Under the pieces are notes generated by a model. It saw nothing but the letters and a program-made list of their open reading frames with translations, was not told where the DNA came from and ran no database searches. From assembly GCA_028753945.1 (NCBI GenBank), contig JAPNXP010000003.1:3844001-3908000 (forward strand): 64,000 nucleotides of DNA, in the 5' to 3' direction. Position 1 is the first letter of the stretch. Each line of letters starts with the position of its first letter. Positions 10,926-55,385 of this stretch are shown in pieces. A program made the translations under genes and the position numbers. Origin of the DNA: Hexactinellida sp. DTS-2022. Taxonomy: Eukaryota > Porifera > Hexactinellida.

Positions 10926-11092
10926 TAAATCTTAGATTAATTGAAACTAAAAACGTAATACGCTTAATCTAACTCTTCAATCTGGTATCTTGTCTCTATT
11001 AGGCTGATTGTCCACATCTATTTCAGCTGAATTTATTGAACTCTTATGTTTATTTTATTTATTTTATTGTCTGTTGATAAGAATTTCAAGAG

Positions 11093-12268
11093 ATGGCCAC
11101 TGAGAAAGAAGAGGACTATTTCCTAAATCAGTTAGATACGGTTCGAGATAAGTTTATCAAAACTATCAAAGAATATCGAGAGGCGCTTGATACACGTGAA
11201 GGAGAAGTGTTGAATGAGCTGGAGCAGATCAAGAATATTTACAAGTGTCAGGACTCTGTCGATAAATTATATCGTTTAAGGAAGAAAGGTGCAGTGGGAG
11301 ATGATCAGGACATGAGAGAGTTAAAATCTGAAATCGATAATACTAGATCTAGGTTCAGGGATGTTATGTTGGAGTGGGATGAAAATCTGAAAGGAACGCT
11401 ATTGAAAACAGGTTTTATTCGTGTAGTGGCTGTCCCTGATTTCAAGAATAAAGGGAAACCTGTAATTATAGCTTGTAAACACAGTTATGAGACATCCGCT
11501 GCAACTGAAGTGTTCAGATATCCTCGTTCAATCGCAATCGACTCTTTTACGAATAATATCTTTATCTGCGACAATGGAAATGATCGAGTGCAAGTATTTG
11601 ATGAATCATTGAAATACTTGTTCAAAATCAGTGATAAACTAAAACAACCATTTGGTATTTGTATCAATCTTAATAACTTATACGTCACACAATCAGTTGC
11701 GAATACTCTCAGTATATATTGTACTGATGGAAGTTACATACATTCAGTTGGAGCGAAAGGCAATGGCAAACTTCAGTTTGACCATCCAAGAGGAGTTGAC
11801 GCTTTGAAAGAGAAAGATGCAATCTGCGTTTGTGACTGGGACAATAATCGTGTGCAATGTCTGGATTTGAATCTTGGATTTCGTTTCTTTATTTCGGGTA
11901 TTAACCATCCTTTCGACATCAAACTGACACAACAGGAACTTGTTGTGTTGGTTGAAGATAATCCTTGCCTTAGGTTTTATGATTATTCTTGTAATTTAAT
12001 TCGGATGATTATTTCTCGTGGAGATGAAGGGCAAGTGAATAGTTCATTTCAATTCTGTCTTGACATAGATTCTAACGTTTTTATGACGGATAAATTTGGG
12101 AAATTTGGGGTAATGATTTTCTCCAAAACAGGAGAGTTGTTGTGTAAATTCGGAGAAAGTGGAGAAGAAGAAGGAGAGTTTATTCAACCGGTAGGCATTG
12201 CAATAGACTACAAAGGAAGGATTATTGTAGGTTCTTCCAACTCTAAACGTTGTATTCAGATGTTTTAA
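11093..12268 (+). CDS. Coiled-coil NHL-repeat beta-propeller protein (TRIM-NHL-like, without RING or B-box)
   Basis: Single-exon 391-residue protein. Residues 1-100 are charged and helical (LDTVRDKFIKTIKEYREAL and LRKKGAVGDDQDMRELKSEI), consistent with a coiled coil. From about residue 135 to the end there are NHL-type blades: YPRSIAIDSFTNNIFICDNG with NDRVQVFD, HPRGVDALKEKDAICVCDWD with NNRVQCLD, and QPVGIAIDYKGRIIVG at the C-terminus. This is the C-terminal half of a TRIM-NHL protein such as TRIM2/3/71 or LIN-41, but RING and B-box are missing, so ubiquitin-ligase activity is not implied. NHL propellers bind RNA or protein partners. The ATG is the first in an open frame after an in-frame stop region. 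Repeats flank it on both sides. The family call is firm; the role is unknown. Confidence 0.85.
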   Translation: MATEKEEDYFLNQLDTVRDKFIKTIKEYREALDTREGEVLNELEQIKNIYKCQDSVDKLYRLRKKGAVGDDQDMRELKSEIDNTRSRFRDVMLEWDENLKGTLLKTGFIRVVAVPDFKNKGKPVIIACKHSYETSAATEVFRYPRSIAIDSFTNNIFICDNGNDRVQVFDESLKYLFKISDKLKQPFGICINLNNLYVTQSVANTLSIYCTDGSYIHSVGAKGNGKLQFDHPRGVDALKEKDAICVCDWDNNRVQCLDLNLGFRFFISGINHPFDIKLTQQELVVLVEDNPCLRFYDYSCNLIRMIISRGDEGQVNSSFQFCLDIDSNVFMTDKFGKFGVMIFSKTGELLCKFGESGEEEGEFIQPVGIAIDYKGRIIVGSSNSKRCIQMF

Positions 12269-49278: not shown

Positions 49279-49452
49279 GTCGGAACAGTAATAATAAAAA
49301 ATTGCAACTGTGCCGACAGCATTTTCCTTGGAGGCACTATCAATTACCCAACCGGTAGCCACCAGAAGATAGCGCCACCATAGGGAAATGCGTCGGCACA
49401 GCTGCAATTTGGATTTTATTATTATTTTTGGTCCGTAGATCGTCCACAGAAC

Positions 49453-50151
49453 ACGAGTGTGAAGTTAGCAGCGTAATCAGCAGCGAAATCCGAGCACACT
49501 TCTGTAGCTAATAAAATGGAAACTAAGACAAATATCAATTAGTCCTTCAAGATTAATAGAGCCTACTTGTGGTACATTGGCCCATTAAATTTTCAAAACA
49601 TTTGGAGATTGGGTCACCCCATGATGAGTTTGCAAAAAAGGTAATTTTTACGAATTTTGGCATTTAAGTTCTATACTGAGCACACTTGTTAACGTTATAC
49701 AATGCAAACCAAGTCACTTATATAGTTCTCCTTTGGCAGACTTTGAGACTAGTAGCGGTATATTAGCTCAGGAAATTTTCAAACTTATCCGAGATCTGCT
49801 TATGCCATGATTACTTTGCATAAAATGTATATATTCATAAAACTTTGGCATTTAAGTTCTATACTGAGCACACTTGTCAACGTTATACAATGCAAACCAA
49901 GTCACTTATATAGTTCTCCTTTGGCAGACTTTGAGACTAGTAGCGGTATATTAGCTCAGGAAATTTTCAAACTTATCCGAGATCTGCTTATGCCATGATG
50001 ACTTTGCTGACACATGTCTGATTCCCTCTTCCAAACTTACATTTTGTTTATTAATATTCTAATACTACAGAAATGTTAATTCTAAAAGTTTCTAATATAC
50101 TTCTTTCTAAAACTAAACTGTGTTCTATTCTATTCTACTGTTGCTCCATTT
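49453..50151. repeat. MULE left terminal inverted repeat with internal duplication
   Basis: Mirror of 54140-54648. The 155-bp block 49656-49810 recurs apparently unchanged at 49844-49998; the right repeat has it once, so the duplication arose on this side. Confidence 0.9.
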
Positions 50152-50219
50152 AAAAACGCGGTCATCATGTTTCATATTGACAACCTTAATTAGATATTCT
50201 TTCTTTATGTGATTTTTAT

Positions 50220-50700
50220 TATTATTATTTTTTTTTTCTCCGTACAGGTGCCCTGGCCATACCTGTATACATTATGGGCTGAAACTTGGCATGTAGGTGC
50301 GGAGTTACCGTCTAATTTGTACCTGGGGTTACGATTTTTGATTAACACATTTTGGACACAGTTTTGACACCTTTCAAAATTTGTCTGGCCCATAACTCAA
50401 AAAATGTTTACTAAACCCCCAATTTTTATTGCACCATTGGATTCACCATAAAATTCTGCGTCTGATGGGAGAAGACAAATTTTCACAATGGATTTAATTC
50501 ATGCCACAAATGGGGGTTGAAATTTCTTTGTTTACTCACACTTCTGTTCTATTGAAAGTGTTAACTATAATTTTATTGTTTCAACTTGTAATAAGTATAT
50601 TGATATAACTTGTTAAATCTTACTCTATTGATTCAACTTGCGATAATTATATTGATTCACTTGTGAATTCGAGCTGGCTTCTATTCAATCGCAGAAATAC
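50220..50700 (-). repeat. Composite-repeat fragment inside the MULE
   Basis: TTTTCTCCGTACAGGTGCCC, ACCTGGGGTTACGATTTTTG, CATTGGATTCACCATAAAAT, then GAATTCGAGCTGGCTTCTATT; matches 54985-55370 and 45720-45830. The MULE sits inside a composite repeat and also contains one. Confidence 0.75.
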
Positions 50701-50916
50701 TATACAATAGATTGAAACAAATTAATTATTCTGTCTAGTCATATGTATATTGTGACACTAAGTTATTCGATTGTCCTAATTTATATTAGGCCCTTCATAA
50801 TTTTTCCATAAATTTGCATCTTGAGTGTTGCATCTCGAATTATTTATAAGACCAGAATTATGTAGTCAATAAAGTGCTTCTGTGATATTTGTTGTTTTAT
50901 TTATAATTGCGTCCCT

Positions 50917-51615
50917 TTGCCCGAGATCATGGGCGGATATTTTTCTGAGAGATTCGAGCAGGCAATCTCAAGATTGGATTTACCATGGTCTGAAATCCGA
51001 CCCAAACTCAGTTATTGTAATTGGCGCGATTCTTTCTCAATTTGGGGTATGTTATCTAAAATAATATTTAATAGGAATCGAACAACTATGAGGAAAAAGC
51101 TAATGCATTTTTGGCATAACAACAATTGTAATATTCAGGACAAAGTAAATGCGAAGTACGATTCTATGGATTTAGATCAGGATAAAATTCAATTAATTGT
51201 TAGTTTTGATCGATCAAACTTGGGTAGTATTTTTATTTCGACAATCCAACAATCAAATGACTCAATTCTGATCTCTACAAGTCCACAAAATAGTCCTCCA
51301 TCACCGGTTATTAATGAAAAAGGATCTGGTATCATTGAAGCTGATGATAATTTATTTTCTTTCAATTCTGAAACTCAACAACCTAACCGATTTATACTCA
51401 CTCCTCAAGAATGGATATCTATTAAGCCAAAAATTGGATGCAACAAATTACTTTCAAATTGGACCTATATTTTCAACCAGAAGCTCAGCGTTTTTTTCCC
51501 CTATTGTGTAATCAAATTTGTATACCACAGAATTAATGTGAATTCGAGTTTTCGCGAATGTCGTTTTATTGTAGCTCAAGCAGTTTGCAAATTTGCTGAA
51601 TGTGTTAAATTTTAA
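50917..51615 (+). CDS. MULE transposase, N-terminal part
   Basis: 232-codon open frame; the real start could be this ATG (MPEIMGGYFSERFEQAISRL). It holds an aromatic/basic N-terminal block (SKIIFNRNRTTMRKKLMHFW) and then a conserved-looking segment FILTPQEWISIKPKIGCNKL followed by LSNWTYIFNQKLSVFFPYCV. As I recall, such FTLTPxEW blocks precede the LDATGS catalytic block in a MULE-type family of uncharacterised proteins found in arthropods, cnidarians and fish. A stop at 51613 is followed by further transposase coding from 51642 in another frame, so this is one piece of a broken gene. Confidence 0.6.
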   Translation: MPEIMGGYFSERFEQAISRLDLPWSEIRPKLSYCNWRDSFSIWGMLSKIIFNRNRTTMRKKLMHFWHNNNCNIQDKVNAKYDSMDLDQDKIQLIVSFDRSNLGSIFISTIQQSNDSILISTSPQNSPPSPVINEKGSGIIEADDNLFSFNSETQQPNRFILTPQEWISIKPKIGCNKLLSNWTYIFNQKLSVFFPYCVIKFVYHRINVNSSFRECRFIVAQAVCKFAECVKF

Positions 51616-51641
51616 CTTTGGATTGAGCGCCTCAATTTGAA

Positions 51642-53260
51642 TTGGATTATTTGACAGTTAATTTTTTTGCAGAAGGTGTTCTTTCAAATGAACACTTTGA
51701 TAATAGAACTGCATACAGTCGAAAAATATCAGGGCAACAGCGAGAATCAATAGGCGAAAATATGTCAAGCATTTCAGCTATTAATTATCATTATGACCTT
51801 TTCAAGAACTCAGATGCTTTAGAAACTGCCAAGCACGGAAATATGAACCAGTTGCATTCAACGCATGTACTACGAAAAATTAAGTCTCAACATTTTTCAA
51901 AACGTCGGTTCGATGATGATATGTGGGAGGATATTATTATTACAAAGAAAACATATGACAGTGCAATAAAAGGGAAAGTTATTGATGGGTACCTACAAAG
52001 ATATCAAGATATCCTATTGTCATACACATGTATAGTGAGGAACAATTGCTTATCTTAAAGTCAATTGACAAGACTAAATTATCTCTACATTTGGATGCCA
52101 CAGGTTCTGTTGTTAGAAAGATAGATAGAGACCAAAAAATTTTCTATACTATGCTCTAACATTAAAGCACCCAATAATGAAAATGAGCCCTATATCCCTT
52201 GCTGAGATGCTGAGTAGCAGCCATACTAATGTAGAAATTACACACTTTTTACACAAATGGAGCTATGATGTGAAGTTGGTATTGAACCATGAAATCTGCC
52301 CCGCTCACATCGAAGTGGATTTTAGTTGGGTAATGCTGCATAGTATCTGCAGGATTTTTAATAAAGAACAACTTGAAGATTATCTTGATGCTTGTTGGGA
52401 TTTTATTCACAATTCACCACAGAAATTTGAGAAAAATAGAAGTGTACTACATATATGCTCAGCTCATTTGATGCACCGCATCAGCTATAAACTAGAACGT
52501 AGTATGAGAACTAGTAAAGTTGTCAAAAGATGCATTATGTTTGTAATGGCTAGGCTAGTATCGTCAACAAAATTTGAAAAATTTGAACAACTTTTCATTG
52601 CTCTATGTATGCTGTGTTTGTCGAGAAGAAAATTTCCAGAAATAAACCTTCATGTGAATACAATTGAAAATGCACTGAGATTTCGAGAGGAAGAAGTTAC
52701 TAATGAATTTGATTATTTAGATGAAATAGATGAAGAACTTCCCAATGACTTTGGAGATGGTAAAAGTTACAAAGATAGATCTCCATTTGGTAGATATTTT
52801 GATACTCTACTAAGAAAATGTCAAGAACGAATTAATGAATTAGAAATTAGATATAAGACCACATATTTTGAGGAAAACAAGAACTATTATCTACCAGCGT
52901 TACCTGAATTTTTAGTCATACATTATATGCCAATATGTCCTATTTGGAGTAGTCTGATTTTAGGTCCAGTTATGTCACCAGGTGAAATCAATGTAAGCAT
53001 AGTAATGCAATCGTGAAAATTGGATGAGAATTCTTAACAACGAGAATAAACTTAGACCAAGTGATTTCTTAAGAAAATTGCGAGGAGGTCTAGAAGGGAG
53101 AATAAATGCTTTCAAATTTGGATTTGAGCCTATAAGTGACAAAGTTTTTAAGAGAACAAAGGATTTTTCTACATTTCAAGATACTACATTAGTAGAAGAG
53201 ATCTGGCAAAAGCGAAAGAATACATATTTTGATAAAAGTATCCCCAAAACATTAGCTTGA
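51642..53260 (+). pseudogene. MULE transposase, catalytic part in several frames
   Basis: Pieces in order: 51642-52045 (AYSRKISGQQRESIGENMSS and LHSTHVLRKIKSQHFSKRRF); after a slip near 52015, SIDKTKLSLHLDATGSVVRK with the first catalytic Asp (about 52106); a stop near 52158; 52177-53016 with ISLAEMLSSSHTNVEITHFL, the second Asp in IEVDFSWVMLHSICR, and HICSAHLMHRISYKL with the C-x2-H pair typical of MULEs; then SNAIV, a one-base slip near 53010, and NWMRILNNENKLRPSDFLRK (53024-53260). The catalytic Glu expected after SNA-IV falls at the slip. At least three breaks, so inactive. These belong to the DDE superfamily that cuts and joins transposon ends. Confidence 0.75.
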
Positions 53261-53415
53261 ATTTTCTACACAAATCCGAAGGTGTTAAAACTATCAGTGA
53301 CAAGAGAATCTATAAACAGACTTTTGAATGTAAAAAAACTCATCCAAATTCTAAAATTAAGAACAAGCCTAATAGCAAAAAAATGTTTAAGGACAATATA
53401 GCAACAAAAAATTGA

Positions 53416-54132
53416 ATGAGCAATTCTCTTATACCAGATTTTAGTGCAGAAATATCAAGCGATGACAGTGTTGTGATAAATGATAATCCTCAAGGTGTTA
53501 GATTATATAATAATGGTCAATTTTGTCCAGTAGATCAAATTTGGCAAAGGAAGAAATGCAAGACTTTGAAACTATCTTATGTCAGTGGAATATTATATAC
53601 TAATGAATCAAAAGACAGAAGTTTGGAAATCCGAGAGCTAAAGCCTTCTAAAGAAAAGAGAATTTCCTCTGATGGAAACTGTCTCTTTAGCTCACTCTCT
53701 TATATAATCACTGGTAGCGATCATTTTCACAGAGAAGTTAGGGAACTGTTAGTAGAGAATATGAAAGGTGCTTACCGAGAAATATGCAGTGGTTACTGTC
53801 ACAGTAAAATAGATTTACTATTAGAAGTCCATTGCCATTCAATTGAACAATACATAAATGCAAGTATGATTGATCGAATGGGATCGTGGAGTACAGATAT
53901 GGAACTGTTTTTGGCCGCACAAATATTAAAAACAGACATATTTGTTTATCAAGAGGCTTATCACTGCTGGAATAAATTTTCTGGTTATGGATTCATAGAT
54001 AAACGCGATTCACATAAATTGACGGGAAAAATAATATATATTCGACTATTTATGAACCATTTCCAACCTATTATCAAAGTGAATTCAAAGGATGAAGTAC
54101 AATGCGAATCCGAAACCATACCGAGACTTTAG
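53416..54132 (+). CDS. OTU-type cysteine protease carried by the MULE
   Basis: 238 residues from an ATG directly preceded by an in-frame stop. OTU hallmarks: SSDGNCLFSSLSYIITG with Asp86 and Cys89, WSTDMELFLAAQILKTDIFV (residues 158-177), and NHFQPI with His215. Asp-Gly-Asn-Cys and Asn-His are the catalytic Cys/His elements of OTU deubiquitinases, so the enzyme appears intact. OTU proteases cleave ubiquitin or ubiquitin-like chains. The Lys-rich stretch just upstream (53264-53413) is open in the same frame up to that single stop, so the OTU domain may originally have been the C-terminus of a longer protein. The gene ends 8 bp before the right terminal repeat. Its frame is intact while the transposase is broken, which may be chance or selection. 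Confidence 0.85.
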   Translation: MSNSLIPDFSAEISSDDSVVINDNPQGVRLYNNGQFCPVDQIWQRKKCKTLKLSYVSGILYTNESKDRSLEIRELKPSKEKRISSDGNCLFSSLSYIITGSDHFHREVRELLVENMKGAYREICSGYCHSKIDLLLEVHCHSIEQYINASMIDRMGSWSTDMELFLAAQILKTDIFVYQEAYHCWNKFSGYGFIDKRDSHKLTGKIIYIRLFMNHFQPIIKVNSKDEVQCESETIPRL

Positions 54133-54139
54133 ATTAGAG

Positions 54140-54648
54140 AATGGAGCAACAGTAGAATAGAATAGAACACAGTTTAGTTTTAGAAAGAAGTATATTAGAA
54201 ACTTTTAGAATTAACATTTCTGTAGTATTAGAATATTAATAAACAAAATGTAAGTTTGGAAGAGGGAATCAGACATGTGTCAGCAAAGTCATCATGGCAT
54301 AAGCAGATCTCGGATAAGTTTGAAAATTTCCTGAGCTAATATACCGCTACTAGTCTCAAAGTCTGCCAAAGGAGAACTATATAAGTGACTTGGTTTGCAT
54401 TGTATAACGTTAACAAGTGTGCTCAGTATAGAACTTAAATGCCAAAATTCGTAAAAATTACCTTTTTTGCAAACTCATCATGGGGTGACCCAATCTCCAA
54501 ATGTTTTGAAAATTTAATGGGCCAATGTACCACAAGTAGGCTCTATTAATCTTGAAGGACTAATTGATATTTGTCTTAGTTTCCATTTTATTAGCTACAG
54601 AAGTGTGCTCGGATTTCGCTGCGATTTCGCTGCTAACTTCACACTCGT
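54140..54648. repeat. MULE right terminal inverted repeat
   Basis: Mirror of the left repeat, ending CTGCTAACTTCACACTCGT followed by the target copy CCACAGAAC. Confidence 0.92.
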
Positions 54649-54657
54649 CCACAGAAC

Positions 54658-55385
54658 AGAGTTTTATTAACTAAGAACTGAAATTTTCAGGATAAGTGTC
54701 TGATGCAGAGGCGGATCCAGGGGGGGCCGAGGGGGCCCCTTCGAAACCGAAATTGACTAAAATTTAGGCTGAAATTGACAAAATAATTAAGAAACTTCAG
54801 CCTCAAGTTTGAATTATGACTCATTATAAAGAAATTAGCGATTAAAATTACTTCTGAGTGTATATAACTTACCCCCCAGACCCCCTTATAAGTTGCTCGC
54901 TACGGTCGCATTATTTCTTGCCTCCCCCCCCTCCCCCCCTTTTCAACATGTCTGAATCCGCCACTGTGATGGGTTACAGATGTGCACCTGGGGTTACGAT
55001 TTTCATTAGAAATTTGGACACATTTTTAACACCTTTCAAAATTTGTCTGGTCTATATTTCTAAAAATGTTATATTAAAGCCACAATTTTTATTTCACCAT
55101 TGGATTCACGATAAAATTCTGCGTCTGATGGAAAAAGGCGAAATTTTATACTGGGTATAATTCATGCCACAAATGACAAATGGGTTTTGAAATTTCTTTA
55201 TTTACATTGTTTCAACTTGTAATAAAAGTAGTGATTAAACTTGTTGAATCTTACTCTATTGTTTCAAATTGCGATAATTATATTGATTCAACTTGTGAAT
55301 TATTGATTCAACTTGTGAATGTGTGAATTGCGATAATTATATTGATTCAACTTGTGAGGCTTCTATTTAATTGTAGTAATTATAC
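54658..55385 (-). repeat. Composite repeat, continuation after the MULE
   Basis: AGAGTTTTATTAACTAAGAA joins onto the part left of the MULE. A hAT-like MITE (54706-54966) is inserted at GTGTCTGATG. Ends near GGCTTCTATTTAATTG with a local duplication of TATTGATTCAACTTGTGAAT. Confidence 0.75.
54706..54966. mobile_element. hAT-like MITE (CAGAGGCGGATCCAGG family)
   Basis: CAGAGGCGGATCCAGGGGGG and GAATCCGCCACTG ends; the inside is about 85% like 3363-3659 by eye (GTGTATATAACT, CCCCTTATAAGTTGCTCGCT). The target repeat is imperfect. Confidence 0.75.

Follow-up and report, generated by a model that had tools for sequence, protein, structure and literature searches.

A transposon copy in the analyzed window, a 64,000-nucleotide stretch of the Hexactinellida sp. 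DTS-2022 genome (contig JAPNXP010000003.1), carries an open frame of the OTU cysteine protease family next to a decayed DDE transposase. We consider it probable that this is a dead cut-and-paste copy, and that the OTU is a selected C-terminal domain of the transposase that removes ubiquitin in cis. The features of the copy are collected in Table 1.

Table 1. Features of the transposon copy and its flanks (positions of the window)
Feature	Position	Strand	Basis or remark
Target site duplication, left copy, 9 bp CCACAGAAC	49444..49452	.	identical at 54649-54657
Left terminal inverted repeat, ~698 bp, containing tandem units of 186-188 bp	49453..50150	+	
Genome-repeat-like stretch	50200..50729	.	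elsewhere in the genome, several copies per place
Remains of N-terminal zinc-finger-like and DDE transposase parts	50866..53415	+	homology to L039, L049, L050, L052 and L054-L058 frames
DDE core	52080..53060	+	reading against invariant columns of aligned relatives
OTU domain tail of transposase, open, 238 codons	53416..54132	+	Cys89 codon 53680-53682; His215 codon 54058-54060
Right terminal inverted repeat, ~509 bp	54140..54648	-	
Target site duplication, right copy, 9 bp CCACAGAAC	54649..54657	.	perfect match to left copy

Results

The element spans 49453-54648. An earlier note on this DNA had delimited it by a perfect 9-bp target duplication and 0.5-0.7-kb terminal repeats, in agreement with CCACAGAAC on both sides and repeats of 698 and 509 bp. 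The inverted termini are 96%-100% complementary over in-register pieces, and the left terminus is the longer one, by roughly one unit of the 188-bp internal repeat. The terminal 12-mer is present twice in the window against none in 100 shuffles, and the genome-wide search for the terminus that had been proposed found it 144 + 145 times, compared with 16 + 11 times for the reversed control. Repeats like the stretch at 50200-50729, mostly 84%-87% identical and arranged as successive copies at, for example, C18:1975865-1979522, also lie inside close full-length copies of the element. Perfect 9-bp duplications flank the window copy, L041, L042, L051 and a 41-bp element in L003, and those of L039 and L045 have one mismatch. 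Perfect 8-bp duplications were found at L054, L055 and L056, and 8-bp duplications with one mismatch at L044 and, for one of two possible left ends, at L053. No target duplication was found for L050, and no direct duplication for a 2.8-kb derivative in L001/L002.

The transposase part of the window copy is indeed broken at several points, as had been claimed, by two in-frame stops (51613-51615 and 53413-53415) and about six frameshifts. Its DDE core shows the first D at 52094-52096, the second D at 52318-52320 and CxxH at 52456-52467, and a frameshift crosses the region of the DDE glutamate near 53010. The stop at 53413-53415, immediately before the OTU, severs the OTU from the transposase frame. 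In intact relatives, the OTU forms the C-terminal domain of a single transposase frame of 1,077-1,349 amino acids, seven of these long frames having been read directly (L049, L050 and L054-L058). Of the 25 loci whose frame reaches 1,000 amino acids or more without an internal stop, 22 have an OTU match in a frame of the same length; the frame at C2:947577, listed with 1,020 but contradicted by direct reading (L051, a 643-amino-acid frame with OTU), is not among them. The OTU taken earlier for a gene is thus an open frame, but it is a severed tail of a transposase frame rather than a gene of its own.

All nine aligned proteins, two of them nearly identical (L054 and L055), retain the D, D, C, H and E as well as the DGNC and His of the OTU. 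An N-terminal pattern, C-x4-C-x31-H-x6-H, is conserved except for the final His in one of eight proteins, and has no Pfam match. The linker before the OTU is variable, with a mean identity of 0.27 versus 0.45 for the DDE part. The DDE and OTU trees have four splits in common, and their conflict is confined to one subclade with mixed support. In the intact relatives, the transposase is thus one protein of three parts, in which a segment resembling C2H2 zinc fingers precedes the CxxH-bearing DDE core and the OTU forms the C-terminus. Across the genome, 81 transposase loci were derived from 87 matches (81 of 778 candidates scored) and paired with 143 OTU rows out of 151 matches (150 of 754 candidates scored), seven identified second split pieces being omitted. 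An OTU lies downstream of at least 72 of the 81 loci. Copies without OTU, named beforehand as a refuting case, do exist, but they are a minority of the copies seen: for 9 of 81 loci, two of which are listed with frames 965 and 989 amino acids long, the matches listed include no OTU within 3.5 kb.

As the earlier note had described, the OTU frame of the window copy is open in full (53416-54132) and has both the DGNC and NHF motifs. It matches Pfam PF02338 with E = 3.2e-9 and 37.8 bits, above the curated cut-off of 23.3. The predicted structure (pLDDT 79) has OTUD3 (4bou) as its top PDB match (E = 9.6e-7), and among 86 matches at E <= 0.001 the best 50 are all OTU domains. Sequence searching of solved structures gave weak OTU-domain matches plus one match to another protein, and one further search of this kind gave zero matches. 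By domain score and fold, the window OTU belongs to the OTU cysteine protease family. The Cys of DGNC is kept in 20 of 20 aligned OTUs and the His in 19 of 20. Many OTUs carry Asp or Asn two residues after the catalytic His; in the 20 aligned OTUs, Gln (16) or Glu (4) occupies this position, and thus catalysis is uncertain.

Private changes of the window OTU comprise eight nonsynonymous and one synonymous in 238 codons. Two of these changes hit conserved columns: 85, where the other 19 OTUs have P or G, and 159, where they have G or A. The rest of the window transposase has six nonsynonymous and no synonymous private changes, plus two stops. From the eight lesions that the transposase part has in 2.6 kb, the expectation for the 0.7-kb OTU is 2.2, and the chance of zero is 0.11. 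Over nine close copies (leaving out the partial copies L047 and L059, with 91% and 89% identity to the anchor), the single-copy ratio of nonsynonymous to synonymous changes does not differ between OTU and transposase part (P = 0.47). Frameshifts plus stops in these copies number 4 in the OTU versus 37 elsewhere, with a nominal P of 0.024 by length in a test excluding the hot-spot linker (anchor 2370-2579). For indels alone, the OTU deficit gives P = 0.07 when length is the reference and P = 0.35 when homopolymer runs are, the OTU being poorer in indel-prone runs than the rest. Pooled pN/pS is 0.36 for the Pfam OTU core, based on few changes, versus 0.68 for the transposase part, and six of the nine close copies have an OTU free of stops and frameshifts. 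The frameshift-plus-stop test and the core pN/pS lean to the reading of the earlier note.

In the comparison of nonsynonymous with synonymous change that had been suggested, the single-copy ratio thus does not differ between the OTU and transposase parts. Differential decay, earlier read as a sign of selection on the OTU in this copy, is poor evidence for it in view of the eight-to-one private changes and the nine-copy ratio; the close copies decay near-neutrally, and the frame looks to have stayed open mostly by chance. Between two intact lineages, L056 and L058, the only pair tested, the OTU is under purifying selection, with an omega of 0.149 compared with 0.212 for the DDE, 0.216 for the linker and 0.296 for the zinc finger. 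That OTU function matters is supported for intact lineages, on this one pair, but not for the reason first given. Intact relatives elsewhere in the genome point to a need of the transposon for its OTU.

MULEs have target duplications of 8-11 bp, usually 9 bp, long terminal inverted repeats and a DDE triad with CxxH between the second D and E; CxxH within a DDE layout also occurs in hAT and related superfamilies. The element shows a target duplication, long terminal inverted repeats and DDE/CxxH (nine of nine proteins). No Pfam transposase match, including PF10551, hAT and FLYWCH, was found in the window pieces, seven long relatives or isolated domains, nor an integrase match by Pfam in the window pieces and seven long relatives. 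By eye, the 81 transposase loci and the 150 PF10551 matches listed have none in common. Comparison by hhalign with three MULE transposases of the same genome, using thin profiles (Neff ~2.4 and 2), gave a probability of 0.1%-0.2%. A full-length model of L050 (pLDDT 45), with nothing in a PDB search at E <= 0.001, is uninformative on the transposase fold. The earlier MULE label is thus suggested by the duplications, long repeats and motif layout, but is not carried by sequence similarity, either to Pfam families or between profiles. hAT elements are marked by an 8-bp target duplication and a hAT domain; the window copy does not fit hAT, as its duplication has 9 bp (though 8 bp in L054-L056) and no hAT Pfam match was found. 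Nor does it fit Ginger1, as CCACAGAAC is not CCGG/CCGT-specific and no integrase match was found. An unlikely reading places the transposase in a DDE superfamily that is new and separate from both MULE and hAT. This superfamily would have an 8-bp and a 9-bp branch and an OTU module exchanged with Ginger1-type elements, such that unrelated transposons in one genome converged on carrying the same deubiquitinase. In viral contigs, two peptide patterns for relatives gave 21 matches, none of which was confirmed.

Discussion

In the reading that we propose, the stop just before the OTU, plus the other lesions, broke the protein of the window copy. In living lineages, purifying selection, as seen in one pair, keeps the OTU as a part of the transposase. 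There it may act in cis, taking ubiquitin off the transposase itself or off proteins located at the ends of the transposon, and deubiquitination would spare the transposase from degradation while it works. Most likely, then, the OTU would be a cis-acting deubiquitinase shielding the transposase or its complex. The proposal made for Helitron VTD proteins (PMC9741609) is counted as a precedent.

It is conceivable, though less than likely, that the OTU instead strips ubiquitin from host factors of chromatin, repair or silencing where the element inserts or excises, easing transposition or escape from silencing. For Ginger1, a role of the OTU and Ulp1 tails in activating factors of DNA repair once transposition has occurred has been suggested (PMC2836005). 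Moreover, a homologous OTU module adjoins integrase-like, Ginger-like pieces in the same genome (E = 5e-20), and therefore the benefit is not bound to one transposase fold; however, physical fusion to the DDE part and a history in common with it fit cis action at least as well. A non-catalytic ubiquitin-binding or structural tail would suit the Gln or Glu at His+2, but is quite unlikely given the DGNC Cys in all 20 OTUs, the His in 19 and the lowest omega of all parts. An independent OTU gene, selected in the window copy while the transposase decays, would explain the open frame, the six undamaged OTUs among nine close copies, the deficit of frameshifts and stops by length and the low core pN/pS. 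Nevertheless, this reading is very improbable and was rejected as unsupported: the private changes and the nine-copy ratio argue against it, the indel deficit vanishes by homopolymer runs, and relatives are fused in frame. The position of the OTU at the C-terminus of a long single frame, after a variable linker, would also fit a self-processing protease that cleaves the long protein into parts, a role made extremely improbable by the selectivity of OTU enzymes for ubiquitin-like tails. Counting against the favored reading as a whole are the Gln or Glu at His+2, the nine of 81 loci lacking an OTU among the matches listed, the low omega coming from one pair, and the frameshift-plus-stop and core pN/pS results.

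Several unrelated transposon types bear domains of ubiquitin-cleaving type. This genome holds several full-length transposase-OTU frames that are nearly identical, besides decayed relatives and copies without an OTU, and so suits testing whether the OTU aids transposition in cis; a seemingly spared frame in one dead copy may mislead.

OTU domains in DNA transposons, called unusual in the earlier note, have already been described. MuDR-6_HM (group 14, Cnidaria) is a MULE entry for which one ORF and an 'Ovarian Tumour Gene' are given (PMC6446971, Table 1); compared by description only, it resembles the present element in its OTU and single ORF but is listed without terminal repeats. Ginger1, whose integrase is Gypsy-like and whose target duplications are specific for CCGG or CCGT (PMC2836005), likewise has a C-terminal OTU on a DDE transposase, whereas the window element lacks such an integrase and duplication. 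Tm1, of the Phantom subclass of Mutator, has composite Foldback-like termini, mostly 9-bp (8-10) duplications and MITE-like short derivatives (PMC3169594), all in likeness to our element. Phantom transposases carry FLYWCH and MULE domains, in contrast to the window element, which has no Pfam match to either, and the available part of that description makes no mention of OTU. A term search of the main text of a 2026 arthropod MULE survey did not find 'OTU' (PMC13359780). The OTU and VTD domains of Helitrons and Helentrons also place a deubiquitinase-type domain within a transposition protein, there a RepHel protein of rolling-circle elements instead of a DDE transposase (PMC9741609, PMC6431247). 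For the VTD deubiquitinases carried by Helitrons, activity has been shown in vitro, and they have been proposed to stop the degradation of proteins that transposition requires, while the activity of transposon OTU domains was untested as of 2022 (PMC9741609). OTU-tailed transposases are already in print, and the present element adds another.

Results

The element occupies exactly the span that the earlier note had proposed for it. Both of its terminal inverted repeats contain tandem units of 186-188 bp, the left one with one extra unit. In the window, the terminal 12-mer is found at the two element ends only (0 in 100 shuffles), and in the 112-Mb genome it occurs 144+145 times, versus 16+11 for the reversed control. 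Perfect 8-bp duplications flank the related loci L054, L055 and L056, and perfect 9-bp ones flank the window copy, L041, L042 and L051 (other branch of related elements). A minimal element made up of nothing but the two terminal tips occurs genome-wide as a single exact copy. The internal repeat stretch is common to the close full-length copies and was thus probably acquired before they spread.

Coordinates and extents of features in the window and at other loci of the genome
Feature	Position or length	Remarks
Element	49453-54648	bounded by 9-bp duplication CCACAGAAC
Left terminal inverted repeat	about 698 bp	near-identical in register to the right one
Right terminal inverted repeat	about 509 bp	near-identical in register to the left one
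OTU frame	53416-54132	open, with DGNC and NHF; PF02338 match, 3.2e-9
Internal repeat stretch	50200-50729	similar to repeat elsewhere, several copies per place, mostly 84-87% identity
Further match of this repeat	54980-55301	just outside the element, 76%
Long NHL-repeat frame	11081-12268	PF01436, E = 1.7e-14
Two-tip element	L003:1501-1541 (C1:1843964-1844004)	41 bp; perfect 9-bp target duplication
L001/L002 derivative	C1:1756093-1758904	2.8 kb
227-aa OTU frame	L063:702-1385 and L064 (C11:6699700-6706500)	minus strand; downstream of integrase-like pieces

Protein searches of the genome yielded at least 151 OTU matches (a lower bound, with 150 of 754 candidates scored) and 81 transposase loci (81 of 778 candidates scored). 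In the intact relatives L049, L050 and L054-L058, the transposase runs unbroken into the OTU within single stop-to-stop frames of 1,077-1,349 aa. The close copy L039, whose OTU is 97% identical to that of the window, retains an open frame of 819 aa that extends from the DDE part across the OTU. Among 25 transposase loci with a listed stop-free frame of 1,000 aa or more, 22 have an identical frame length listed for their OTU, and one of the three exceptions (L051, C2:947577) actually has a 643-aa frame containing the OTU. Given these single frames, and an in-frame stop immediately 5' of the first OTU codon in the window, the OTU "gene" of the earlier note is, as the frames read, the severed tail of the transposase; its open frame and motifs hold, its separateness does not. 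Common to the aligned proteins are a C-x4-C-x31-H-x6-H segment (its final H absent in one of eight), the DDE core D, D, CxxH, E, and the OTU Cys and His. Trees of the DDE and OTU parts have four splits in common, with conflict confined to one subclade of mixed support, an agreement that fits an old fusion.

At 68 of the 81 transposase loci, pairing placed a same-strand OTU match no more than 3.5 kb downstream, and four more found by eye bring this to at least 72. The remaining nine include two loci whose frames are listed at 965 and 989 aa; neither has an OTU among the matches listed. Copies lacking an OTU, which the earlier note had named as evidence against its reading, do exist, as exemplified by the L001/L002 derivative, where a search for an OTU match found none. 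It carries the same 12-base tip as the window element, terminal repeats of 320 bp (99% identical) and degenerate transposase remnants reaching residue 945 of L054, with all frames at most 128 aa; its flanks are mutually inverted, without direct duplication. At least seven terminus pairs among the matches listed span 2,811-2,813 bp, this derivative being the one examined.

The earlier note had called the element a MULE. The 8-9-bp target duplications of the element and its relatives, the long composite repeats and the DDE/CxxH order fit, and the termini are of the same kind as those that PMC3169594 describes for Tm1, assigned there to the Phantom subclass. However, neither PF10551 nor any other transposase family matched the pieces or relatives tested, comparison by hhalign with three of the genome's own MULEs gave a probability of 0.1-0.2% with thin profiles, and the transposase fold model was too poor to inform on kinship. 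We describe the element as a DDE transposon whose ends resemble those of MULEs, and as a candidate rather than an established member of that group. The genome has at least 150 PF10551 MULE matches.

The structure model of the window OTU (pLDDT 79) adopts an OTU fold: its best match is OTUD3, and the best 50 of 86 matches at E <= 0.001 are OTU domains. The catalytic Cys is conserved in all 20 OTUs and the His in 19, with Gln (16) or Glu (4) two residues after the His. Catalytic activity is plausible, as judged from sequence and model. Between L056 and L058, both intact, the OTU is under purifying selection, with the lowest omega of all parts (0.149), compared with 0.212 for DDE, 0.216 for the linker, 0.296 for the zinc finger and 0.346 for the N-terminal part. 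On this one pair, the other four being saturated in most parts or near-identical, the OTU appears to matter in living lineages. The L056 branch has moved recently, since seven loci have stop-free frames of 1,255 aa and an eighth of 1,254 aa, with listed OTU identities to L056 of 100% after rounding.

Discussion

The earlier note treated the OTU of this copy as a gene of its own and took the unequal decay of OTU and transposase as a hint that OTU function may matter. Codon-by-codon comparison of nine close copies (the window and L039-L046, in the columns of L041) lends this some colour. The first 2,370 bp contain 37 frameshifts and stops, versus 4 in the 717-bp OTU (P = 0.024 by length), six of the nine OTUs are free of them, and pN/pS pooled across all pairs amounts to 0.36 in the OTU core versus 0.68 in the transposase part (0.67 in the whole OTU frame). 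However, single-copy nonsynonymous and synonymous changes show no difference between the parts in these copies (Fisher, 104:28 vs 21:8, P = 0.47): 104.5 to 27.5 in the transposase part (rate ratio 0.92, near neutral), 21 to 8 in the OTU frame (0.65), and 11 to 5 in the Pfam OTU core (0.53). Changes common to several copies number 13 to 8 (0.39) and 5 to 2 (0.62) in the transposase part and OTU, respectively. Changes private to the window copy comprise 8 nonsynonymous and 1 synonymous over the 238 OTU codons; over the 852 transposase codons there are 6 nonsynonymous, 0 synonymous and 2 stops. Conserved columns are hit by two of the OTU changes: the 19 other OTUs all have P or G at column 85, and G or A at column 159. 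Counting all indels gives 35 versus 5 in the OTU; P is 0.07 when scaled to length and 0.35 when scaled to the count of homopolymer runs of at least four, whose densities are 24.1 and 15.3 per kb, respectively. We read the lesion deficit as weak and partly mutational, giving no sound ground for selection in the dead copies. Differential decay thus survives as a leaning in lesions and core ratio, and an independently selected gene is very improbable; counting in the pooled core ratio raised it by a hair and slightly lowered our preferred explanation.

That explanation, which we hold with good though incomplete confidence, is a dead copy of a transposon whose OTU tail is, on the one pair compared, selected in living lineages and likely serves as a cis deubiquitinase. 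The OTU would cleave ubiquitin, with the transposase or its complex as the first-choice substrate. The chief alternative is that the OTU acts on repair or chromatin factors of the host; we favor action in cis because the OTU is fused to the transposase and shares its history.

An OTU homologous to that of the window element (E = 5e-20) lies at L063/L064, where the integrase core match upstream (PF00665, E = 1.3e-6) is below its cut-off; the locus resembles an intron-containing Ginger1 element. More than 20 OTU matches listed have the same 227-aa frame length, this locus being the one examined, and the genome has at least 150 OTU matches. In the open-licence PMC literature, we found no report of such an amount and diversity of OTU transposases in one genome, nor of homologous OTUs on this transposase and beside Ginger-like pieces in one genome. 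According to PMC9741609, Helitrons carry OTU and VTD domains and their VTDs cut ubiquitin, and transposon OTUs are described there as untested. Transposases with OTU are already in print for Ginger1, as a tail (PMC2836005), and for MuDR-6_HM (PMC6446971, Table 1); the architecture is thus a known kind, to which the window element adds another member.
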